Source: Nymphaea colorata (taxonomy: Eukaryota > Streptophyta > Magnoliopsida > Nymphaeales > Nymphaeaceae). Taken from it: a stretch of 64,000 nt of DNA. Positions 4,943 to 41,815 of the stretch are shown piece after piece. The position numbers and the translations under genes were made by a program. Position 1 is the first letter of the stretch. The number at the start of each line of letters is the position of its first letter. The DNA is taken from assembly GCF_008831285.2 (NCBI RefSeq), contig NC_045145.1:16260040-16324039 (forward strand), written 5' to 3'. The notes beneath the pieces are model-generated. The model was not told where the DNA came from and did no database searches. It saw only the letters and a program-made list of their open reading frames with translations.

Positions 4943-7900
4943 CTATCCAAATGGTGAAGGCACCGGCCCAGCTTGTGAATCGGATCTCTTGATGCTGCCC
5001 ATGCCACATATACTGCAACCATGACCAGTAAGAGCTGCAAATTTAGCACCGCAAAGGTCACATGCATCATGTCCAATGGTGGACAATCGACTAAGGGTAG
5101 CAGCACAAAACTGAGAAGCATCCTCCAAGGGGTCGATTGACTTGTTGGTTAGCCCTCTTTGCACACATATGTCGATCAAACTTCTAAGCTCATCCTGCTT
5201 ACCAGGGGGCGCTTTCGAAAGAAGAAGATCCAACATTGACTTTGCATAACCGTAATTTTGAACCTCCATGTTTCGCTTAATTGAAGTCCTTATGCAGTTT
5301 ATCCGGTGCTTTGCAAGAAGAGGCAAAGAACCAAGATGACGTGAAAGCCTTGCCATCTCTTCTTTTGCACTAATTGCACTTGGACCTTGCACCTTCTGCA
5401 GACGACCAATTTCCTGCAGCAAGAAACAGATTAACGCATTAAAAAAGAAGCTTCCACTACCACGGCATCAACTATTGTCACCAATATCGTTCTCAGGTTT
5501 TGTACGAAGAAGACCGTTTTTCTTTCTGCAGAAAATATCGGGAAAATCTAGGCATTTTCTTTAAAGAAAAAACATAAAAAGTAGGTAAAAAATGAGAAAC
5601 TAAATAAGACAAAAAAAAATTAAATAAGACCATAAAAATGATGTTTCAATTATGATAAATAATTTAGTTTACGTTTAAAATTTAATCCATGATGATATTA
5701 ATGACAAGAGAGGGAAAATTTGAAAAAATTGGAAGGAAAATACAAAAAAAAAAAACAAAAATAATGCAATGAAACACATTAAATGGATTTTTGTTCTTTT
5801 TTCCTTTTTAGCATTAATATCATTTTGTTGGGAAAATGTGTCATTTGCGACAATGATATCAACAGAGTTAATTAAATAATCATTACAATCAGAAACAAAA
5901 ATTATTGGCAGCATTAGTACAAGAAATTGATTATGGGCTGACCGCGAGCATGCAATAAGCCCCTGTGATACCTGAAGGAGTGCAACAGCAACCTTGTACT
6001 GGGCACAAATGCTGGCTTGGGCTTTAACATCTGCTCCCTGAGACAAGTCTTTAGCCAACGCTAGAAAAGCCTCATCCAAGCACGATAGAGCATCGGTAAG
6101 TTGATTTTGTTCAAGGTGTGCAAGAGCAGTCTTGAAACATACTGGAGCAGCTGCTCCACGAGGAACCTGAAAAAAAAAAGAACAAAATAAGCAAGAGAGC
6201 ATCAGAATATACTATTTAATTATGTAACAGCATTGGTCCATACTTGTCCAAGGCGCACAGCTATTGGTGCAGCAGGAGTGGATTTTCCTCCATTAGTTCC
6301 AACATTGGCTTCTTGAGACACAAGGACACCAAGATCAATTGGTTGGGCAGCGACCGGAGCTGGAGCAGCAGCTGCTGATGGTTGAGGGGCCACTGACTGA
6401 GGAACGACAGACTGTGGTGGAATGCCACCATCTGGAAGCCCAATGGACTCGAGGGAAATTGCAGACGGTTGAGAAGCAACCTGAGGAGGCACTCCACCAT
6501 CAGGAAGACCAATGTTGATGGGAGTATTAATTTGGTTAGAAGACACTGAGCTGCTTTCAGGAACCCTTGGCTGATCCAGACCCCCAAAGTATTTTGCTGG
6601 CGGTGCCAAGGATGCTGCCACTTCCAAGGATGATATGGTGTTCTGAAAGAAATCTTCTGGTATTGGTCCAGCAGATACACCCATTCCCATCACCATAGCA
6701 GTAGGTTCTGCAGTTGGAGCAGCAACCAATGTAGGAGAGAAAGCCGCAGTGGGAGGAACAGTTGCCATAGGAGGAAGAGTGGCTGTGGTTGAAACAGGAA
6801 ATGGCTGGGAAAATGCTGCTGTAAAATCTTGGGAGCCTCCAGGTGAGGACCTAGCCCTTATGGGAGGGCCCAATCCATCACCAAGTTTGAATTGTTTGGT
6901 TGCTTCTTTGATCTTATTGACATCAACTGTCGCCCCAGCAGTTGGTTTCTCTTTAATTTTTATAACTATTTTCTTTTTGGAAGTACCTTCTTCTTCATCA
7001 CTGCTGCTGCCATCAACACCATAAGGTTTCTTAAATTCTTCTTCAGCTTTCGCTTGCTCATCTGCAGTGGGACCTGCAGTTGGTTTCATTAAGTTTGCTA
7101 AGCTGTTCAAAGAATCTGCCTTTGTCTCTCCATCAGCTGATGCCTTATTCTTCTTAGAAGGGAACTTGATCAAAGCCGTTCCCATCCCATTTGATTTGTT
7201 TTCTCCGTTCAACGCTGTAATTGTTTTTACCAGACTGTCTTCCCTTACTTCAATCACATTTCCTCTTCCTTTCATTACACCCAAATAAACCCCGATATGA
7301 TCTGCAATGATGGATGGGATTGTTCCATCAAAGGTTTTCATGTAGGGCATCACTTCACCTGCTAGCTCCCATTGAGGTATAGATTTCAGGTCAGTTGGTG
7401 TCTTTATTTCCCAGTTTCCTCCACCCCATTCAGGGCCCTTTGGGACCATACTTTCAGCTGCAAAGTTGGCAAAAATGCCTTGTGTCCAACCTGTTGATCG
7501 TATCCTCAAAATTCTCTCACAGTATCGCCTTAGTTCTGAATCAGTTCCCACATCTTCTAATTTTTGAGCAAGGTTCCGCATAGCGCTTGGGTTCAAATGA
7601 CAGATGAACAGATCAAGCATGCTTTGAAAATCAGTAATAGCCTCAAAGGTTTCTTTGGCACTATCAAATTGACCATGCCTGCAGTTGCAATACCATATGA
7701 TATAAGTACAGGAATGCTAGGAAAAATCAAACAGGAAAAATCAAACACCAGAAATTAAGAGTAGAAGCATTTGTTCTCTTCCACTATAACATATGAGTTA
7801 GCTGGTAGCACATTGAAGTTGTGCTCTCTACAAGTAGCTTCATTGTGTTGTTTGAGGATATCACGTTGTCTGTCACATCACATTATTTGGGTGGCAACAA

Positions 7901-10900
7901 TTTCAACTAATTCAAGGAAAAAGGAAAACTGAAAATATGTATTCATTTAGTATGTTATAAACAATGACACTACATTAACAGTCACCTTTCACATCACAAA
8001 TATGGTCCCCTATGGCCTATACTCCAGAGTTCCTGTACATTTACCAGATACAAACCACAGCCATCACCATCCTCAATGGAATATCAAGACATGTAAAATC
8101 TATCATCCGTTTCCAGGTATCATTGATCGACCTGGGCGTTTGCACTTTGCAGATTGTCTTCTGTGCTAGTGAATCAAGTTTCAAAACCATTAATATTCTT
8201 GCCAAGGGAGAAAAAGCTGCAAATGCAAATTGGGTAAGCAAAAACTGTTTTTCAAAATATGGATCAACATGAAGGCAACCATCACTAAGCTGTCACTGAC
8301 TCACTGGTCAATAAGCAGAGCAGCACTGTAGTAGCTGCAATGCATAATTACGACATCGCATTTGAGAACAAAATGGACATTTTAAAAAAAGCTCCCATTC
8401 AATAAATCAGACTTAGCAATTGATGGACCAGCAGATAATTCTTCTGAAATCAGAAACAAATGGCAGCACAAACAGAATTACATTTTCCACATCCATTAGC
8501 CCTCAAAAGTGATGTGCAAGAACACTACGTACTTGATGCATGAATATCCCAGGTGGCGGAAGCGATAAAATAACTGGGAAGTGGGAGGACATTGTGGATA
8601 GTCCCTTGACCGTAGAAACTCATCCTTCAAAACAGAAAGAGCTGTAGAAAATCGGAGAGCTTTGATTGCATACATACAGCGCAAAACCTGTGTGAATTCT
8701 GCACATCATTACAACCACCGCAGGCAGAAAAAATAAACGCACAATGAGGTTACCTGAGTAAACTGTGGACCAGCTTGAGCTAATGCCACAGCAAGGTCAC
8801 CACAAGCTGGAGGGCCTTTTGCTAGAATGTCAAGGGACCTTGAAGATATTCTCAAGCTATCAAACCTTCATCAGACAGTAATTTAGAAATAATCAGCATT
8901 CAGTATTACAATAATAAAATTATCAAAATCATGTTCCCACTTTGGTCCGAACTCAAACACTTAGGCAAAAAGGTCTGTGGTTAGAAATTTGAAGACTATT
9001 CAAAATACAATTACAGCAGAAGCTGCTTTCAAGAGAAAAAGAACACCTTGAGGTCAACTGGTATAGAATCTCTGGCACGTTGATCTTCTGCTCAAAACTT
9101 TGTTGCATAGTAGCAAACCCAATGAGAAGAGGCTCAAGCAATCCAACTAGACAACTTCTGATCTCTACCCCTTTCTTTTGCCTTGGGTTTATGTCAGTTG
9201 GAGATGCAAGCAGTATTCGATCATTCAGAGCACCAACCAGCACTAAATGTGAAAAATTATCTTGATTATTCGGAAGAAATGAATGGAAGAACTATTAAAA
9301 AGAATAAAGTTATCATCATATGTCATTAGAGCCAGTGCATTGGCACTTACAATCATATATTTCAGCCACCGTTAAGAAAGTTCACAGTTCAACAACCCAG
9401 AAGAGATATGAATCTGAAGTCAACCTAAGTTACGGGAACCTTTACAACCTCATAAACCAAGTACAATGTGATAAGCCTAACTGTAAAGCTTAAAGTGACA
9501 ACAATATCATCAGAAACATTAGTTTAAAATTGAAATCTTTAACAACTCAAACCACAAAGACATGTGGAGAATCATTTTAAACTTCACGACTGAGTCCTCC
9601 CAACAGCCTAGCACTTCAGTGATGCATGATGCATCGTACAAAAAATCATCAATATGGACACCAAAACTATTCAACACAATGAATTCATGGACTGATGAGA
9701 TTTTCAGTTTCTTCCATGGATGATTAGCAAATCAAGCTGCTTGTGCACAACTTTGGTTCTACCAGTTTAAAGATCAGAACATGCAAGATAGAGCACAGAT
9801 GCAAAATTATCAAACGGAGACCAGTTTTACACACACACTAGAAAACTAAATGGTGGTTCAGAAGTTTGGTGTGCCCATGTCTGCCCTAAGGTCAATGACA
9901 GCATTTTTAGTTAATCTAATGTTCTTGGTAGATTATCTCAGTGTTATCCGTATCATGCGATACCAAAAACCTATACGATACACTATACACTTGTGTACCG
10001 TAGGCATATCGGCCATATCGTGCAATACGGGGCTGTATTGTACGATACGGCCGATACACCCCTATATCATATGATACGGGATAAAATGAATTTTTTGTAT
10101 TTTTTTACAAAAGAACCTCTCGCTTCTTTCCAAACATGTCTAAAAGTTGTAAGAGGGGGAAGTTTTACTAGTTTCTTTTACAAAATTTGCCCACTTATGT
10201 GAAAAATCATTGATTTAGAGGAGAACTTGCTGGTGGAGAAGAAGGTTTACTCATGACCCCATGGAGATGATGAGACCTTGAGTGATGATAATCATAATAT
10301 ATTATATGTCTTGAACTTGTAATGTAATCTAAAACACTTTAAAGTTTAAACATTAAAGTTGTGATAGACACTTATTATGTTATTATGAATTTCTTATTTC
10401 TCATTTCTAAAAGTAATGTTAATATATTATGACATATGAATGATGTGACGAGTCTTTTTATATATAACACATTTTTTTCCAAAACTTTATTTGTTTTTCC
10501 TAAGTTTAACATTTTTTTCTAATTTGTTCTCTTTTTTCTATTTTTAAAATTTTTTTTATGAATTAAAATTTTAATTTATGATACCCTATGCTACGTTTAT
10601 GATACGCTACGATACAATGTATAGGTCGGCCCAACCGATACACGTTACGATACGCCTTTTACAACATTGGATTATCTTGTTACAAGCCATACTTTGGATC
10701 ATATGTTTAGGAAATAAACTCATGACCTTTTGAGCATCAAAATATTCCGATGCTTTGTGAAACCTTAATTTTTTCATGCTCTTGATTTTTCTTTTCACAG
10801 ACTAATAATGTGCTCCAAAGGTTCTTATTTGTTAAATAAACTGTCAGATCACATCCATCAAATTATTATGACCACTCACTCACTTGAACAAATGGCTTTA

Positions 10901-10960
10901 GGATATGAAACACAGGGCACCCAAATTTGAAGGCGCACTGCATACATACCACACAGAGAT

Positions 10961-11001
<41 letters not shown>

Positions 11002-14000
11002 ATTATAATCTGACCGAGGCCGGGTAGGTAAAAATAAAAAATTTGTAACAGAAAGCATCATAAACAACTGTTAAAAGCACCACAAACCATTGCTGCACCA
11101 AAAGATGCTCCTGTAGCATTTTTTTAGAATTTCAGTGACAAGTTTTTAATTCTTATGTCCAAGTATGTACATTTCCAAAAAAGAGCCTTGAAATCCAATT
11201 AAAAACAAATTTTATGCCCTAGAGAAGAGTCTGACTGTTGTTTTTTGAACTGTTAAAAGACAATTCACAGACCGGATTACAGTGAATTTTCTTTTAATAT
11301 ATATTTTTCGACATTTTAAACATATATGCACACTTAAAATTTCCAAACATGGCCATTTTCCTGCCAAAACAACTGCACAGCATCAAATGGCTAGATTTCT
11401 TTAAGCAGGAATCGCTTCAGAAATGCCTGCTCTCTCTCTTAAGTCTTAACGTCAATTGAGGATGGGGTTACTTAATAGCTGATGTTCTCATTTTGCATCT
11501 TTCTTTTATATAATTGTCTTCCTAGCACTCTTTGATATTATTACACCTGTTGGATGGATAGGAACATGCCAGAATTACCTGTTTACAGTTGCACGACTGA
11601 GTACCTGCTTAGGTCCTTGTGGTCAAGCCACCAACTTCTATGACCTTCCAAAATATGGCTAATGTCATTTTTAAATATTTCTCGCATAAATTCACACTTT
11701 GTCTTTTGTTTTTTATAACCTTTTATTCTTTCTTAGTGATTCACGATTTCCTTTAAATCAACAATGAGATAGTAACTGGCTTTATTAACATGGCTGAAAG
11801 GTCATTTTTCCCCAAAATGGGCTAAGCCTGTGATCATCATCATCCATCTGGTCCATTATTGGTCTCTTGGACACAAAGAGGTCAAGTGTTGTGCAGAATA
11901 CTAACTTTAGCTTATTAATTTTGTGACTATATAGTTGCACAAGCTTGAGTCAGAAGGTAACTAAGATTATGGAAGAAATAGCACCAGACTCATTTTCACT
12001 TTTAAAACTCAATTTTGCAGATACTGGCACTTATCCATCCAGTAATTGGAAATGATAGAAAAAAAGAAAAAAACCCACTTTTTGGCTTTTGCTTCTAGTT
12101 TGTATAGTCTGTCTTATAACAAGACCAAAACCACATATTTCCTCAAAGGTATCCTGAGATCTCTATTTGCTTGCAAGCCCACCACGTCATGGTCTATTGT
12201 ATTCAAAGGTCTAAATCTGTCTGGAGAGAATGCCCTAACGAGGTAAGAAAAATTGATGAGCATTGGCAGGGCAACTATCTCCCATGGTTTGAGTGTGCTA
12301 GTTTTCTCCCAATAAAGTATCATGAAACTAGTGAGACCCAGGTCTTTGGCTCAAACCGTAACTCCACAGCCACATGCAATGCAATTCACTGCTCTAGAAA
12401 CCATAGATAAATCAAGCTGGAATAAGTGGAATGGATAGGAATGTGCTTAGAAAACAAAGGGCAACTATCTCCCATGGTTTGAGTGTGCTAGTTTTCTCCC
12501 AATAAAGTATCATGAAACTAGTGAGACCCAGGTCTTTGGCTCAAACCGTAACTCCACAGCCACATGCAATGAAATTCACTGTTCTAGAAACCATAGATAA
12601 ATCAAGCTGGAATAAGTGGAATGGATAGGAATGTGCTTAGAAAATAAAAAGGCTCGGATGGTAGAGCAATATTGGATTGGTTCACTTGAAACTTGAAAGA
12701 CAGACAAAGTTCACTGAAAACAATTAAGTAACCTTGAACTGCAAAACCTACTAGATAGCAGGACCAAAAACTTCAGACTTGCCAGAAGTGTTCATAGATA
12801 TTTGTTGGCTTAAAAACCTAGAAGATCCTGCGCCATTTTGGAGATAATTCAACAATTGAAGAAAATGAAAACAGATAGAAACCAACTTGAAGACCTACCA
12901 GCATTGGGCATGCTGATTGATAGAATTGTCCGCACCATGCCATCCCATCCAAGGATTCCTATAACTGCAGAAGTTGAAAATAGAAGAGCAGGTCCAAGCC
13001 ACAAAAGCGATCTGAAGTGCTATGATGTTAAGGGAGTTGAAATAGCCACATGATGGATGGATAACAGAACACTAAATGGATCAGAAGGGCCATATTAAAG
13101 CAACAATGCAACAATAATGTCATTAATCACTTTCAGGATATTGAGGGGAAGCCTTTGTCAAAGGTAGAAGAACTACTTGCTAAGATCACAAGGTCCTTGG
13201 TAACAATCATAACACGATGAGTAGTCAATATTCCTGCAACATGACCTCTCAGGGTTTCCTGCCATTGAACCTTCAGAGGACAACAACATAGCATCTCGAT
13301 TAAAATTTAATTTGCAAACAACATTGAAACTTCAAAGTAATTAGGATCAATTTAGTATTCTCAATACATGAAAGAGAGAAATAATCTTTAAATGAAGCCA
13401 GGAAAATATTCCTATAGTGCATATACAAACATGTCTTATACTTTAGTTATTTGACCTCGTAATCAGAATACGGCCATTAGCTAACCCAGTTGCCAAAGAC
13501 ATTTATCAACACATTGAATAACTTTGGTTTTAGTATATAGATGTAGACGACGTCTAAGTGCAACATTGAGAACTTGATTTATTCAGTCCAGAGTCCAGAA
13601 ATATGAATAAGCAAGTGAAAGAATCAAGACAATTAAGGTAGCCACATAAACATTGATTACATGCTCCCCAATGGTGTAAAATCTATAGCCCTGCATAGCA
13701 AATCTTTTATGGTGCATTAAAGACCAGGAAGAATTCCTATTACAAAACAGCCACCATTACTCACATAATTGAAAACTGAAAAGTGAAAGCATCACCAAGT
13801 AAATTCGAAGGGGAAATCTCTAGACACAACTACAAATAGCATGTTTTTAAAGTGCACAATAATGCATACAGTAAGACCCGAAATGGTTGATATCCTAAAA
13901 AACCAGGTCGTAGTGGTGGTAAATATAAAAAAAAAAGATAAATTTGAAACTATATTGGCAAATCACGGTACCCCATACAGGCAGATACCTATTATTGGGC

Positions 14001-17000
14001 AATGGAAAACTCTATTGGCAAATCACAGTACCCTATTCCCCATGTTTAGGGTAGAATACTGCCCCACGGATCTAAAACTGAGAGAGGTAAAGGTTGAACA
14101 ACACCAGAAGGAATTTGCTCACATCATTGCTGTATTCTCAGTGTATCCTAATCTGTTTCATAGTGAACTGCTTCAGCAGGGATACCTAGGCAAAAATCTC
14201 ATATCACTGTCACATAACCATATCATTGCTGTAACCAGAGCGTATCCAAGTCTGTATACATACTGAACCCCTTCAGTAAGGGTACAAGAGAAAAAATCTC
14301 ATATTTAGTGACCATGTTCAATCACGGCATAACATAGATTCTACATCCCATAACCAAGCAACTTCAAACACATTTTTTATATTAGAAACAGCAAGAATCG
14401 CTGGTCAAAAATAATCAAATTGTTCCAGTATTTTAATGCTTATCTTTTTGTGCCCTACTTTATCCCCTGATGTTCTTCCCGTGTTTCTTGACACCATTTT
14501 GATATTGACTGCTTGTCAAGCCTAAGGATCTAGAAGTATGTGTTTTGTATCTAAGTCATATGGATGCTCAATTTTAACTCTTGCATCATGTTCCTTATTT
14601 AATAAAGTCATGCTGTGAGATCGAGAAAATTTGCCAAATCCCACACCCATGTGAAATAATCCTGCTTTCAGCATCCATCAGAGGAAGTAAACTGGCATTC
14701 TCAATAGTCAGCCAAATACAGTGGACTAACCAAAGATTAAAATGGAACAAAAGCTTCTTTAAGTTTGTTTATCAATCCAAAGTTCCTTAGGTGTAAACAG
14801 TAACAAAGACTTTACTCTCATTCAAGAAATATGGAAAAAGAAAGGCAAATGGAACAGACTTATTCATGGCCAAAGTAAAGCTGAAATAAGTACCTGGATC
14901 ACAATTTCATCCATTTTCAATCTGATGGCTTGCTTTCCCTCTTTTTTGGTTGATGAGTTTTGGCCGTGGTCAGTTGAAAGTGTGTATCCTTGAACAAGCT
15001 TGGTGAGCCCAATATGGCTCCCATGAGAAGCATACATCACCATTGACTCTGCAAGAATAAAGAACCGCAATCACACTAAAAGATAGTAAACATTATCATG
15101 GTGTTAAATGAGATAGATATACATACCCATTGGTGTAGAAAATATACGATCAACCTCAGATTCAAACGTAAACTGCATAGCACCTCGATCAGGAACCACA
15201 GTATTCTCGGTAAAGGATTCAGGATCAAGTGATCCATTACTCATCTTATCCTGTGGAGCAGAACTGGTAGCTTGTAGAAAGTACAATGTCAGTCCAGTCT
15301 TATCATCATCAAGAATAGCATATTGGTTTTCATTAACCCCAACGAAAGCAGCATCTCGTCCTACACACACATACAAGAAGAGAGGTGAGAAAAAATCAAA
15401 ATTAAGAAGAATTCAGAAACCACCTTGCAACACATTTGACTAAACAAAATTGTAAGAACCTTTAATTATGCCTCCTTTGCTATGGATAGACTGTGCATCA
15501 GTCTGCTCCCAGTGCACCACAACTTCAGAACCATTTCCATTTGTTTCGAAAACAATAAGAAATAGGTGCTGCTTTGAACTGTACACAAGACTCTTCGGGT
15601 AGCATTCACCATTTACAGGAATCTGAACTTAGACAATGGATTATCAATTGAATGAATAGGTCTTGAAGCTTTTCAAGTTCCAAAATGCAAGTGTCCGAAA
15701 GAAAAAACAAAAAACCAAAAAAAAGGATGACGGAGTGGAATCTTTGTACCGTTGAGTATAGCTTTTTGTATATGTTGTCCACTCCAGAGCAAATATTATA
15801 TGCCATAAGGTTGACACTATCGAGGTAAAATGCCCTGACAGGATAATGTAAGATTCGGTTCTCTCCATTGAAGAAATTGAGCTCCAAATGATAAGGCTAG
15901 AGACAAAAGTACAGCTATTAGCAGAGGAAAAAAATTATCCAACCTTGAGAATACAGAGAAAGATCTTGAATTAAAGGAACCAACCTGGCAGACGGGAACA
16001 TCTCTCAGATGGTGCTTTGAATCAACAATAGTGATCAGAGGCAGCCGAGAGATTGGCCCGTTCTTTGCATGGCCCTCCATGAAGTGCTGTACAAAGAATT
16101 AGAAAAAAAATAATGCGTGGAATTTAACAGCTAAAGCACATAATGCTTGAGTAGCTCCAACAGAATGAAAGAAAAACTGCACTTTAAGATAAGAATGTCA
16201 TACACTGTGAAGAAAAGCCTTGCGAGCTATATCCGTAATTGAAAGCTGGCTTTGGCTGGCAGGCAATAAAAAAGTCAATAAATAGCTTTCACAATAGGTA
16301 CAAATGAACCAAGATCTTAAAATGCCCCAAACTCCAAAACATCATATGGCAAATGAGAAACTAGCTATTCGTTTGGCACTTGTAGCAAAAACACACACAC
16401 AAAAAATGACCAAAAGTCTGGCATTGGAATTGAAAAACGGCTTCCAGAATATTGGAAATAGACTCGGGTTTTTTCCTTTCCCTTCACACTTTCCCTAGTA
16501 ACGCTGCAAGACATCTCACCTTGCTTTTTTGTGTCGGCTACTGACTTTAACATCAGCATCTACTGATACTAATAGCATGCACTAATACAAAGCAGAATAA
16601 ATAACCCAACCAAGTCAGCTACACAGAAAGATGGAACTTGACAAACACTGTCATTGGTGACAATACAGCTAATGTCCAATAGTGGTGGCTTGCTTGAAAT
16701 CAATTACCCCTTTGTGTGCTGCTCTTGGAGCTGAGTCTGAAGCTGATGTTCAGCCAAAACCCCTGACGAACCTAATGAGAACAGCTTTTCTTTCAAATCA
16801 GCGGCTGCAGAATAGTAGATATAGTTAGAGTTCTAGGCAACGAAGCACCAAATCATGAAGGGCGCAACTTAGACACAAGGTGAGAAAACGTTATATAGAA
16901 AATGGATAGCCACTTAAAATCTGAACCAAGCAAGGCCAGATTCAGATTTTGTCAACCTTTTAGTATCATGGATCAGCGAAAGAAGTTCCTCCACAACTTT

Positions 17001-20000
17001 TAAGGAAGCAATTATTGGAAATCAAACAAAACAACTTTAAATTTAACATGTGAGTTTGTCAAACATAGTTGCGCAATCTATATATGTGATCCATCATCAC
17101 TATGAGTATGAATTAATAAGAAGATGCAAGAAAAAGATACTAAAATTTTAACATATGAAAAACAGGAATTTAGAACCAACCACCTTGTAAACAGCAGATA
17201 AAGAAGACAACATTCACCTGTTGAACCTCTTGCACTTTGTAGAACAGCGAAAAGTTGTTTTCTCCCCTCCCTTGTGAATGATGCTGCCTTGCTTTTTGAA
17301 TTACCACCAGTGGATAGGCCCTGCAAATATGGGTTCAGAGTCAGCACCTAGACAAAAAAACAGGATAATGGAGACATAGTGAATAATTTAGACTGCTGCT
17401 ACTCACAGACAAAAAAACAGGATAATGGAGACAGTGAATAATTTAGACTGCTGCTACTCACGTAACTGCAAAAAGTATGGTTGCTAAATTTAGCTTAGGA
17501 TGCACTATTATAGATTTAATGCGTGGAAGAGGATAGACTGCCTCTCCTCCTCTCTGTGATAATATTCCAGTTATATCAATGGGTTCAATTCCTGCAAAAG
17601 AAGAGAAAACAAAGAATAAACATACTGCTACGGCATACAAAAAGAATTACAAGAAAAGCCAGGCAGCTGACATCAGATAAAATGCTAAAATCAAAAGGAT
17701 ATTCGATGGAAATACTTTCTTCAATGACTTGCTAGTTGTCACTGGCATGAATAATCATCTATTCTTTGAATTGTTCAGCCAACCGAGAAACCAATTCTAT
17801 CAAAACATAGGAAACTGAAGGAGAAAGATAACGTGGAAATGTCTATATGAATTGAAAAAATAAATGATACAGCAGTGTTCAATATTCTTTATTCACGAAA
17901 GGCATTAGATAAAACAAGAAAAGGTCTCAAGAGACATACACCAAAGAACATAGAAACAACAGTTGACAAATAAGATGCAGAAGTGTTTCTCAGGTCATTC
18001 CAATGGCCCACGAGCTGAAACTCAAAAATTCTGCTTTATTTGTGCAGATGTGTTGAAAGAAGCTTGTAAGGAAGGGAAGCCTAAAATGAGAAGCAATGTG
18101 ACCTTGACAATTATGCAGCAACTGTAAAGCAAGCTAGGATACATGGAAGACAAAAATTATGAAAATACTCATAGGATGAATGTCGAAAGGTTTGAGTCTG
18201 GTGTACAGCAAGACCACTAGAGTCGCAAGTTAGTACCACTTAGATGACCCAATGACCATATACACTATACAGGAAGAAGACAAAAGAACTACCAACAAAA
18301 GCAGACGCTAATAATCTAGACCCCTGGACAAAGTACCACTAAATTCCATGAAATTCTTGCTCCTTTTACCACAAAATACTTGCAAAAACATCATCAAATA
18401 TGCAACAATCTAGACCCCTGAATAAAGTACCACTAAATTCCATGAAATTCTTACTCCTTTTACCACAAAATACTTGCAAAAACATCATCAAATATGCAAC
18501 AATCGCAATCAGAAGGAACAATAAGAGGTAAAAAATTGTTCATTCACTAGTACCATGATAAGCTGTAAGTCATCCCTAACAGAAGAAGATGATGTACACT
18601 TCGAATAATATGCATTCAAACACAAAACGGTATCAACCTAAAAAGACATGAAAAAAGACATACTATTATACATATGAGATAGGATTATGCCAACCACATT
18701 CTCTAGGTTAGAATAGCTAGCCAAGTCAAAAAACGGTCAATCAGAGATGAGAGCATAGCAAACTGACCAGCACGTTCAAAAAAGTTTGCCTGCATAGGCT
18801 GTCTGTTAGGATTAGTTATGACACGTGTTCTCCACACTTGAAGATTTCCATCCTTGGAAAGAGTGATAAGAAGACGCAACATGGGGTGCCATGCTATGGA
18901 TATTATAGGTTGTGAACCAATCTGCTTTCTGCATTTGTAAATAATATGTTAGAAATAGGAATCTAAAGCCATTCATAATTTAAAAATGAAAAAAGACAAA
19001 TAAAAGATAGAGAAGCATAATAGACATAAAAATATATACAAAATGCAAAAATAACCTCTCCATATGCAAATGGTGATCAGTATTCAACAGCACAAAACAT
19101 ATAGGACATGTGAACAAGTTGTTCACTCATCTCCAACTCGAAAGACAACTTTTTAAGGGTACTGCATAGAATCCCAAGGATACACATCTATATTTTGTTT
19201 ACAAAAATGAAAAGTGAAGGTTATCAAGTTCCATGATAGCCTCTCGTTGTCTCTCCACCTCCTCCTTTTTCTTAGTCTGCCTCTTAGCATGATCTATTTT
19301 GTCTTTATACACACTGAAGCGAGAAAATGGAACACAGATCAAGGTGCAACACCTGCCCATTGAGAACATGTACAAGCTGCAGACTTGCATGCTACTTACC
19401 ATATGTATCCTGAAGATTATACATTCTTACATGTTGACTATTGTCCTAGGGCTTCAAGTGATGACCATGCTGAATTATGGATAACTAACTAAACCATTGT
19501 CTGCATACTTTCCAATATTAAATCCATTAACTACTAAGCATGGTTCCAGATCTAATATGATGTCCAGTAGTGCAGTTTTTTCTTTTGTACACCTCAAATA
19601 TACAGTTTATGAGAAAAAAAAAAAGATATTCTCATAACATCAGAAATATTGATGACTATGATAACTACAAAGGATTGATAAAAATTAAAAATCACAACAA
19701 AAGTGACAATATCAACAACAGGAAGATAACAAAAAATCATATGTCTATTGTGCTGAATTCCAGTAAAAGGGAGAAGGTAACATGATCACTTCGGTCAAAA
19801 ACTCACATCCCAATCATGTTTGGTCTTTCTGTTGACACATCCCATGCCAAAAGTGAACCTCGACGGTCACCAATAAATATCCACTCGAGTGTTGGATGAA
19901 ATGCAAATGCACCAGCACCAATTAGCTTTATGGTATTATCAACTAAAATCAGAGCCACAAAAGAAAACATGTTAACCAACAATAATTTAAATATTGACCT

Positions 20001-23000
20001 AATAAAAAGGACTGTAAATGTAATAAATTTGACTACAAATATAATTTTAAATAAACTGATATCTTACTTTGTAGTGTATAATGAACAGCATAAGTGTGTA
20101 TGTTATATGCTCTTATCAAGCCTTCCGCATATGCTACATACTTGAGTAAAGTGAAAAGGCCATCAATACATATATAGAGACCTGATTGCTGAAAAAGCAT
20201 TGAAAAATTTTTAAACTGGAAAGAACATGTAATGAGATATGAAAATAATACCAGTAGAGGAAGACGTGGATGACATGCAAGGTTAACAATAGGCTTCTTG
20301 AGGTCTGTCTTTATCTTGGTGGGGGCCCTTCCACCTTCCACTGTGCCAACAACTTTACACAAACCACACAAATCTCAGAAAACCAAAGCATTTGGGAAAG
20401 ACAAGCGGAGAGACAGAAACATTAATTACCCGTTACACTCATCCTTCGATGGAACCCAAAAAAAACAATGGGTTGAAGAGGAGTCAATGCAATATGGACC
20501 TCAGTATCAGGAGCAATTTGTTCATTCCTCTTCTCAGGAGAATGCAGGACAGCTGTCTGCTCATTGTCGAAATCACAAGAACGGATGGTGCAATCCTATA
20601 AGCAACACATGCAACTGTACAATTAGATCAAGAGGAACCAATAGCAAGTCAAGCTATGAACCAAGAAAAGGCCGAAGGATGGCAAAAAAAAAAAAGAATA
20701 TTTTTGAGACATTGAGAACAAAGAAAACACAAGAAGAGAATTTGACATAAAGGTAAAAGAGAAGGATTAAGAGTTGATGGAGTGCAATATGCAAATCAAG
20801 AACCATTGTTGTAGAGTGTAGCAAAATGTTTCCACTATGAAAAAAAGGGATTAAGAATGAAAAAGAGAAATTCAAAAGAGTTGTTGGATTGAAATCTGCA
20901 AATCCTGAACCACTGTTTATATAGAGCAGCGAAATGTTTCCACCAGGAAAAGGAAGTAAGAACCAAAATAGAGCAGCTTACTGTAAATGTAAAAAGTAAA
21001 AACCTAAAAGTCCACATTTACCATATCAAAATAACCAAATACACCTTATTTCTAAAATAATCAGTTAACTTCAGAGGAGAGAACCAAGGGCTTGTACAGC
21101 ACCATGGCAAAACCATTTTATCTCTGAGTCTACAAGCAAAAACAACAGCTACAAAATATGCAGGTGAATTCTCCAAAAAGGAAAGTTGAGTCAGCCATTA
21201 TGCTGGTTCTACATTCATCCTTTCCTTTTACAGGGATAATATTACATAATCAACATTTGCTGTGAAGATCTATAATTTGGGGGAAGTTGTAAAACTAGGC
21301 TAACCTCAGACACTCAAAGTAACTTTTCATCTTCCTAACTTTGTATATGGGTTATAGAAATCTCTGAAGACAACTCAAGTTACCAATTTTGGTTTCACAT
21401 GAACCAAATGTGCATTATTAGACAAGAACCATCAACAGATTCTACACAATCCTAAGTCGGTCAAATTCACATGTACATTGAGCTTCTATAGTAGATCTGG
21501 AACTGAAACTAGCTTTATGGGATGACTGCAAGTGAAGCCTATCTCAAATAAGTTGCACTTGATTTATCACCATTTTGAGATTGAAGATAGTCTCCACATT
21601 TTGAGGGACTATTCTTCCCAATTTCGAGGGCAATGGGATAAGGCAAACAGGTTTTGAGAACAAAGACCACCAAAAGTAGGGCGAAAAATGAAAATTTATC
21701 TGGAAAGGCTTTCTCTCCCTTCAAAATGCTCCTTTAAATGTGAAATAGCAACTACCCGACTATCTCGTACATCTATCACCCAAAAGTAAACATAATTAAG
21801 AGACAAATTGCACATTTCATATGAAAGTTAACACTAGAAAAGGTTTTCTAAAGTACAAACCTCAAGAACAGCAATCACCGTATGTCCACTAGTGGGACTA
21901 TACAGCATCCTAACAACAGGTGCACCAATATCAATGGACGAGATCTTGGATCCAGTAAGTGCATCAAATTCTAAACACCAAAAAGAAACTTTGTAAGCGA
22001 AAAGTAGGAAAGGAAAGACAGTGGATCATATGCTACGTTGGGCCTTTCAGTCACATAACTCCATGCACCTCAATTTGTTACACAAGCATATGATTTGAAT
22101 AAAAGTTTGAAGATCAAACATACTAGAAGATATTTCAACAACTATATATAACTTAAGATTAAAGTGGTAAGCAGAAGCAAAAAAATTGAGAGTCATCACA
22201 CCACGAGTACTTCTGAGGGAACAGAAACTAATGACCTGAAAGAACAACGCTAAAGAGTGTAACCAACACTTGTCAGAAGATGTAACAACAGATGGTTAAA
22301 TGAAACCGCAACTACAAACAGAAGTTGGTATTTATCAAACAAGAACTTAGCAAGAATAAAGTGTCAGTACTAAACTTTACAAAGCATCTCACGAATTAGT
22401 TAAAAGATCCTTGTGCAGGTGCATGACAATCCCTACAACACAATCTCCCACCAGCCTTGACATCTTCATTGCAACATCACTATATTGCTGCTTCGCAGAA
22501 TCACCATGCAATTCACATGGGCGAAACTAAGGATCTTATCTGCCACCTCTTGTTCCACTAATATTCCTCCTTCCTCTATCTTCAAGTAAATTTTGATCAA
22601 GTGAAATCAAACCTTTTCTTGAAGCAGCAAGTCCAAGGTGAGCTTGGCTGTCAATAAGGGCGAGCACTCTAGAGTCTCAGCCACGTGTATCTATCCTCTA
22701 CCCCAAACCAAGATCTAGGTCCACCCAAGGAAATGTCACTACATGGGAGTAAATGATAATCTAACGGGTGCGCGCCAAACAAATCACATAACAATTTCTA
22801 CTGACAGCAGCAACATAAGAATTGTCGCGACAATAGTAAAATCACACTTTATTCATGCGGGAAAATTGCTTTTCACGATAGGCTTCCCGAATGCAATGGG
22901 ACACTTAACGTCCACCGACGCAACTGTCCGTGAAAGCTAAGAAAGGAAATAGTAAGCAATTGGAAATCCAAAAGGCCAACTGGAACGCAAAATCAGAAGA

Positions 23001-23187
23001 GTAATACGGTGAACGGCAGGGGGATACAGGATCTCAAAAGAAAAACGAACTCACCGACGATGAAACTCCCAACGGCTACAGCCATGATGGCCTGATTTGG
23101 ATGGAACGCCGCGGCGTGGGGCTGCAACGCCTTGTGCCCGCGGTCGACATGGCGGAGATCCAAATGCTGCAGCGTGGTCCACTCCAT
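4943..23187 (-). CDS. TWD40-2: TWD40-2, WD40 subunit of the TPLATE endocytic adaptor complex (24 exons)
   Basis: The joined exons give about 1,622 residues that track Arabidopsis TWD40-2 (At5g24710), as I remember it, from start to end. Exons run from high to low coordinate: 23187-23055, 21970-21861, 20595-20430, 20352-20252, 20140-20068, 19942-19807, 18928-18768, 17591-17467, 17320-17218, 16804-16708, 16255-16204, 16086-15985, 15896-15750, 15622-15460, 15360-15127, 15048-14894, 13270-13142, 13016-12899, 9242-9047, 8865-8754, 8687-8533, 7678-6244, 6166-5972, 5413-4943. Phases agree throughout, but the 17467/17320 junction is uncertain (see findings). The N-terminal ~350 residues hold the WD40 repeats. 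The large exon encodes a low-complexity Pro/Ala/Thr segment with an acidic SSSDEEEG patch (from about residue 1147) and two IGLPDGG motifs (about 1312 and 1335). The C-terminus has a CxxC...CxxC zinc-ribbon-like motif (Cys 1584, 1587, 1599, 1602). The complex works at the plasma membrane in clathrin-mediated endocytosis (established for the family). The start is the only Met preceding the conserved N-terminus. Confidence 0.93.
9939..10669. mobile_element. 731-bp non-autonomous hAT-type element in TWD40-2 intron 18
   Basis: The element starts CAGTGTT and ends AACATTG, giving short inverted ends (CAGTGTT/CAATGTT). A perfect 8-bp target duplication, gattatct, flanks it at 9931-9938 and 10670-10677. 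Both subterminal regions are rich in scattered gatacg/cgtatc words in either orientation, as is common for hAT transposase-binding ends. The middle is AT-rich with no transposase frame. The hAT assignment rests on the 8-bp duplication and terminal sequence. Insertion is recent enough to leave the duplication intact. Confidence 0.85.
10967..10997. repeat. (TA)n microsatellite
   Basis: Uninterrupted TA run inside TWD40-2 intron 18. Confidence 0.9.
12269..12648. repeat. 190-bp tandem duplication in TWD40-2 intron 18
   Basis: Two head-to-tail copies, 12269-12458 and 12459-12648, beginning gggcaactatctcccatgg. They differ by only a few substitutions (for example gcaatgc/gcaatga and actgct/actgtt), so the duplication is recent. 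No exon lies inside it. Confidence 0.9.
13017..13141 (-). other. U12-type AT-AC intron of TWD40-2
   Basis: Reading the minus strand, exon 17 ends CCC TCA (Pro-Ser) and the intron opens with ATATCCT, the core of the U12-type AT-AC 5' splice site. It closes with AC, and exon 18 starts TTC AGA TCG. A TCCCTTAAC branch-site match (13035-13027) puts the branch adenosine at about 13028, 11 nt from the intron end. The join gives FPS-FRSLLW, which matches the family. Any GT-AG alternative hits an in-frame TGA immediately after the donor region. Length is 125 nt. This is seen in sequence. U12 splicing itself is inferred from the motifs. Confidence 0.88.
17351..17461. repeat. 56/54-bp tandem duplication at a TWD40-2 splice donor
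   Basis: Copy 1 is 17351-17406 and copy 2 is 17408-17461. They differ by a 2-bp indel (gacatagtg versus gacagtg). On the minus strand each copy begins with a GTGAGT donor-like hexamer or its continuation, so the intron-proximal end of exon 8 and its donor context have been duplicated into the intron. This lies directly at the splice junction whose phase is uncertain. Confidence 0.9.
18313..18500. repeat. 94-bp tandem duplication in TWD40-2 intron 7
   Basis: Copies at 18313-18406 and 18407-18500, each beginning aatctagacccctg. They differ at about three positions (ggacaaag/gaataaag, cttgctcc/cttactcc). Intronic, with no coding consequence. Confidence 0.9.
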
Positions 23188-24008
23188 CGTCGACTAGGAC
23201 GATGGAGAAGTAGATTTCCTCTCGGCTCCCTCGCAGCTCCGATCGATCTAAACGGGAAATGCGATCGGCATCCCTCCCTAAAACCCTATCGCCCAGAGAA
23301 TTCTACGTCGAGCAAAGCAAGGAGCGAAGAGCGAGATGCGATTTCTCGGCATCACCGGGAGAACGGAGAACAAGAACAAGATTTCCGACGCCAAGAGATC
23401 GCGAGATTTGCAGAGAGATCTGGCCTAAGAAAAGAAGGGGGAGGAGGAGCGAAAAAAACATAAAGTGGATGCCGGGAGCGTGCCGATGATGACAAGGCGC
23501 GGGGATGTAGTCGGCATTTTGGAGAAAAGTTATCTCCCAGATTAATCGGGTCGGGCCTATGATGTCCCGTTCTCTTCAAAATTTTGTAACAAATAACACT
23601 TTCTTTTATTTGAACTATTGTTCATACCAATGAGCGTGCGCTTATTAAGATTCGGTTTATTTTGCAATCTGAAACGTTTTGTATGTCATTCTAGCATCTT
23701 GTTGTTTCTCTGAAAGTAAAGAAAGTAATTTTAATTGATGATTTTAATTTCAGACATTTATATAACATTTAAATAGAAAACAAGGATGGAACCCGAAATA
23801 ACAAAAAAGTAAATTTCGAATTTGTCAAATATGTATCGTCGAGAGTATGAAATCATTAATTATTTTGAGTTCTCGTGCAAGCCTAACAGAGAAAACAAAA
23901 AATACAAAAAAAAAAAAAAAAAAACTCTGCTGAAACAAAGGAGGTCAGCAGTAAAGAAATCAAAAAATTAGAATAAGCCAAGCAAAATGCTCATCATGAG
24001 CAAGGCAT

Positions 24009-41742: not shown

Positions 41743-41815
41743 GGGGATGTAGCTCAGATGGTAGAGCGCTCGCTTAGCATGCGAGAGGTACGGGGATCGA
41801 TACCCCGCATCTCCA
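41743..41815 (+). tRNA. tRNA-Ala (anticodon AGC)
   Basis: The acceptor arm GGGGATG pairs with CATCTCC, with one G-U pair. The A box TAGCTCAGATGG and the B box GGATCGATACC are in place. The anticodon stem CTCGC/GCGAG closes a loop with AGC at 41776-41778. The discriminator base is A at 41815, and no CCA is encoded. It is 73 nt and has no intron. A CAA motif sits just upstream (within 'atcaacag'), a feature of plant Pol III tRNA promoters, and a T run follows at 41827-41830. It looks intact and functional. Confidence 0.95.

Follow-up and report, generated by a model that had tools for sequence, protein, structure and literature searches.

A Probable U12-Type AT-AC Intron in a TWD40-1-like Gene of Nymphaea colorata

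Introduction

The stretch of Nymphaea colorata DNA analyzed here, referred to as the window (64,000 nucleotides, C8:16260040-16324039), carries on its minus strand a long gene in which the segment 13141..13017 brings a stop codon into an otherwise open frame. The question raised by this locus is whether the segment is an intron of the rare class that begins with AT and ends with AC and is removed by the minor spliceosome, and in which gene such an intron would lie. The original prediction had described it as a U12-type AT-AC intron in TWD40-2. The present analysis indicates that it is very probably a U12-type AT-AC spliceosomal intron, the 17th of 23, and that its host is most likely the TPLATE/TSET scaffold gene TWD40-1. 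The predicted intron class is thus retained, on the strength of the sequence, the reading frame, the excluded alternatives, the machinery genes, and the CBP20 intron, while the gene name is not.

Gene Model and Identity

The gene model was built by inspecting positions 24000 down to 900 of the minus strand and setting the exon ends by eye, which gives the following coding region.

4943..23187, minus strand: TWD40-1-like coding region, 24 exons, 1622 aa, GT-AG ends fitted to 22 introns and AT-AC ends to one

The 24 joined exons encode 1622 residues (175.7 kDa) with one terminal stop. GT-AG ends could be fitted to 22 of the 23 introns, intron 17 alone being AT-AC, a count that partly reflects choice because the exon ends were picked to keep the frame. 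The least certain of these ends is the donor of intron 8 (17467-17461, minus strand), a weak GTTACG that keeps the frame but could be wrong; a better-looking GTGAGT is found 5 nt 3' of it, which breaks the frame with the acceptor used, and a 55-nt tandem duplication lies next to it.

Tandem duplications of approximately two copies occur in four of the introns, namely intron 7 (18313-18504, unit 94 nt, 96% matches), intron 8 (17350-17461, unit 55 nt, 96%), intron 16 (14123-14304, unit 100 nt, 76%), and intron 18 (12268-12648, unit 190 nt, 98%). Intron 6 contains, at 19320-19199 of the minus strand, an open stretch of 38 residues, VYKDKIDHAKRQTKKKEEVERQREAIMELDNLHFSFL, followed by a stop. By eye it resembles a coiled coil; it gives no Pfam match and may represent either a fragment of a gene or an alternative exon.

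The two TSET scaffold proteins are described as having a beta-propeller/alpha-solenoid architecture (PMC4031984), and TWD40-1 and TWD40-2 are given as At3g50590 and At5g24710, respectively (PMC6853982). The window protein resembles these TPLATE/TSET scaffold subunits (TTRAY) in its Pfam matches: residues 148-284 match weakly to WD40-type families, and residues 913-967 match weakly to COPA/B TPR (E 0.017), all of them under the curated cut-offs. For the comparison with the Arabidopsis proteins, the query stretches were putatively assigned to At3g50590 (TWD40-1) and At5g24710 (TWD40-2). Of 148 positions aligned between the putative TWD40-1 stretch and the window protein, 109 (74%) are identical, without gaps across the junction of intron 17. 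The putative N-terminal 222 residues of TWD40-2 behave differently, giving four matches (76-84% identity) that all fall at C8:3928938-3933502 and none in the window; the gene so matched, at C8:3.93 Mb, is 12 Mb away from the window gene. The name TWD40-2 in the original prediction therefore appears to belong to that other gene, and the window gene is most likely TWD40-1 (At3g50590) rather than TWD40-2 (At5g24710), provided that each query stretch is paired with the right accession.

When a 148-aa stretch of the gene was searched against the 408 Mb genome, three matches were obtained, all within this gene. A 399-aa stretch found no relatives among PDB sequences, viral contigs, or plasmids, none of which are plant collections, and the same stretch gave 27 pattern matches, with no relative among them, in a likewise non-plant collection of genome contigs.

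The Intron and Its Splice Sites

The features of the intron and of the two exons that it separates are as follows.

13142..13270, minus strand: exon 17, VQWQETLRGH...FDKGFPS, placed by the frame
13017..13141, minus strand: candidate U12-type AT-AC intron 17, 125 nt, phase 0, 64% A+T
13135..13141, minus strand: 5' splice site ATATCCT, 7/9 to RTATCCTTT; GA comes next, so that the consensus TT at +8 and +9 is not kept
13027..13035, minus strand: branch-site match TCCCTTAAC, 8/9 to TTCCTTRAY; its second A precedes the end of the intron by 11 nt
13017..13018, minus strand: 3' splice site AC (GCAC/TTC), placed by sequence and frame
12899..13016, minus strand: exon 18, FRSLLWLGPALLFS...MPNA, placed by the frame

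Read on the minus strand, the intron starts with ATATCCTGAA and ends with TCCCTTAACATCATAGCAC, and is flanked by the exon ends TCA and TTC. The predicted coordinates are exact, and the ATATCCT start, the AC end, and the branch-site match 11 nt before that end are as described in the prediction. Removal of 13141..13017 joins the exons in a single open frame, VQWQ...STFDKGFPS-FRSLLWLGPALLFS...MPNA, as anticipated by the prediction that TCA and TTC would meet to give FPS-FRSLLW. When the segment is kept, translation instead runs FPS-I-S and stops, and retention was rejected. On the other side, the plain sequence has a TAG in the frame of exon 18, two codons 5' of TTC. Since both frames run into a stop, the two exons are stop-bounded just within the intron.

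The consensus sequences used here are those given for the U12-type 5' splice site in PMC2846911 and for the branch site in PMC5932401. Among the 23 introns of the gene, intron 17 has the best branch-site match (8/9, the others having 5-7), while its 5' match of 7/9 is shared, as the best, with introns 4 and 19, neither of which contains TATCCT. U12-type branch sites are usually located close to the 3' end of the intron. U12-type introns lack a polypyrimidine tract at the 3' end, but the pyrimidine content there does not set intron 17 apart: the 20 nt preceding its AC contain 12 pyrimidines, the corresponding values for the other 22 introns being 9-18. The intron is in phase 0, a phase that minor introns are reported to have less often, with an average of 22% (PMC10639083), and AT-AC introns amount to 4.8% of U12 introns according to PMC5932401, in line with the description of them as a small minority in the original prediction.

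How much the motifs could prove by themselves was estimated by scanning the window for ATATCCT without mismatch, combined with AC and with a branch site that deviates at no more than one position, at a spacing of 60-400 nt. One such pair is seen, that of intron 17, against 0.53 expected, and at least one appears in 33 of 100 dinucleotide shuffles. With 0.53 pairs expected by shuffling, the motifs by themselves are weak evidence for an intron. The original prediction took motifs and protein join as agreeing independently. The motif pair, taken alone, is close to what chance would give; in this sequence-based assessment, the case for the AT-AC intron is made by frame and position. At the junction fixed by the frame, the simulated chance of ATATCCT is about 5e-5, and that of an 8/9 branch match in the last 40 nt is 0.019. 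Pairing with the genome's own snRNAs is predicted to be less stable than that of consensus sites. The predicted duplex of the 5' site of intron 17 with the genome's own U11 has an energy of -4.8 kcal/mol (consensus -5.8 kcal/mol), and that of the branch site with the genome's own U12 has -5.3 kcal/mol, compared to -7.4 kcal/mol for the consensus and -3.8 kcal/mol for the reversed branch site.

Alternative Readings of the Junction

For the joining of exons 17 and 18, with both splice sites inside 13270..12899, the donor-acceptor pairs compatible with an open frame and separated by 50 nt or more were listed. There are 36 GT-AG, 14 GC-AG, 37 AT-AC, and 41 AT-AG pairs, and none of the 36 GT-AG or 14 GC-AG pairs over this range keeps FPS-FRSLLW. 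The region 13165..13130 contains one GC and two AT as donor-type dinucleotides and no GT, the next GT being at 13130, beyond the in-frame TGA. The failure of a GT-AG reading, which had been predicted from the in-frame TGA, is consistent with the absence, over 13270..12899, of a GT-AG pair that preserves the join. An ordinary GT-AG (U2) intron would have to use an upstream donor and discard part of the protein before FRSLLW, or more. The 36 open-frame pairs offer such introns, for example, 13189..13020, which yields TKDL-HFRSLLW, but FPS is lost in all 36. Where FRSLLW is retained, 16 or more residues are missing (VILASSSSTFDKGFPS), the majority of them alignable with the putative TWD40-1 stretch, and the lack of a GT within 13165..13130 also argues against this reading, which we regard as scarcely credible.

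The sole close competitor of the AT-AC join, as judged from the sequence, is a U12-type intron with AT-AG ends at 13141..13020 (122 nt), which would give FPS-H-FRSLLW, whether as a minor variant or as the principal product. The AG at 13020 is in frame, and the pair should be among the 41 open AT-AG pairs; against it, no more than 8 nt would separate the branch adenosine from the 3' end, the extra histidine is missing from the putative Arabidopsis TWD40-1 stretch, and the CBP20 control in the same genome uses AC, so that we consider this ending improbable. A few AT-AC introns are spliced by the major (U2) spliceosome, and the class of a given intron is provable only by perturbing the minor spliceosome. 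Removal of 13141..13017 by the major spliceosome is nevertheless very improbable, as both the TATCCT at +2 to +7 and the branch match (8/9, 11 nt before the intron terminus) are characteristic of U12 introns. That the segment reflects a broken gene or an assembly error instead of an intron has nothing direct in its favor beyond the locus having been seen once, in one assembly; the rest of the frame, 1622 codons in all, is uninterrupted and standard ends could be fitted to the other 22 introns, which makes this explanation about as remote as the ordinary GT-AG intron.

CBP20 Control and Minor-Spliceosome Genes

A U12-type AT-AC intron that separates the core part of CBP20 from its tail is reported in 10 of the 10 plants studied in PMC5932401 and served as a control, being sought downstream of the best CBP20 match as a check at the expected place. 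A CBP20 query stretch gives 12 matches in this genome, of which the two best, both at C9:1.60 Mb, are 92 and 90% identical and the other ten 28-43%. The intron found there, ATATCCTTTC...TTCCTTAACGAGCATAAC, is 719 nt long and joins YDPG to RGGYGKL; it looks like an AT-AC intron of U12 form at apparently the place reported for plants. Intron 17 shares with the plant CBP20 intron the AT-AC ends, the ATATCC 5' site, and a TTCCTTAAC-like branch site near the end. The two differ in that intron 17 belongs to another gene, has GA for TT at +8/+9 and one branch-site mismatch, and is in phase 0, whereas the CBP20 intron follows the first base of a codon.

The genome also contains candidate genes for the machinery that would act on such introns. 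Rfam matches over the cut-off were found genome-wide for U12 (one match, 88.9 bits), U11 (one match, 75 bits), and U6atac (five matches, the best with 97.6 bits), and the U12, U11, and U6atac sequences contain GAGTAAGGAAAA, AAAAGGGT, and GAAAGGAGAG, respectively. No U4atac was found in this genome, nor in any of 14 control genomes, so its absence is not implied.

An identical upstream stretch, TAGTCCTGTATCGAA, precedes a TATA-like stretch in U11, U12, and one U6atac copy, and another of the U6atac copies carries it in variant form. Such an upstream stretch together with a TATA-like stretch is typical of plant snRNA promoters.

The DIM1 family is represented by six matches at three places in the genome. 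For the gene at C4:18.34 Mb, the closest similarity is to Thioredoxin-like protein 4B (E 5.3e-30), with DIB1 (8.3e-12) and U5-15kD (1.3e-11) far behind, and it is by this similarity TXNL4B/DROL1-like.

Proposed Splicing Pathway and Implications

On the basis of established minor-spliceosome biology, U11 would pair with ATATCCT, and U12 would pair with TCCCTTAAC such that the branch adenosine bulges out. U11 would then be replaced by U6atac, and the use of the AT-AC ends would be supported by a factor of the TXNL4B/DROL1 type. We infer that 13141..13017 is actually spliced by these ends.

The junction of intron 17 follows residue 729, and retention would stop the protein after residue 731. An unspliced intron 17 would thus end the protein approximately half-way, with the alpha-solenoid part presumably lost. 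Given this truncation upon retention, it is reasonable to infer that expression of the gene depends on the minor spliceosome. U12 introns are spliced slowly, and for this reason a rate-limiting or regulatory role of intron 17 is possible as a prediction. Gene finders restricted to GT-AG introns would be expected to misjoin or truncate the protein here.

The locus is a single, clean example of this rare class of introns in a gene for a component of the TPLATE complex, which acts in plant endocytosis, and suggests a testable connection between endocytosis and DROL1, a splicing factor related to AT-AC introns. It may be that the AT-AC intron is ancient and conserved in plant TWD40-1, tying production of the endocytosis scaffold to the DROL1/TXNL4B AT-AC branch, but we put this forward only tentatively and consider it rather doubtful. 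No link of the DROL1/TXNL4B machinery to the TPLATE complex was found in the literature searched, and among the papers retrieved for TWD40-1 and TWD40-2 (At3g50590, At5g24710), none is by its title about U12 introns. It is quite possible that intron 17 already has an entry in a U12 catalogue. The intron is a sound but ordinary instance of a well-known class, otherwise in line with known plant minor introns.

Elsewhere in the window, two further features were observed on the plus strand.

41743-41815, plus strand: tRNA gene, 60.3 bits
54465-59036, plus strand: open frames that resemble, by eye, exons of a calcium-dependent-type protein kinase
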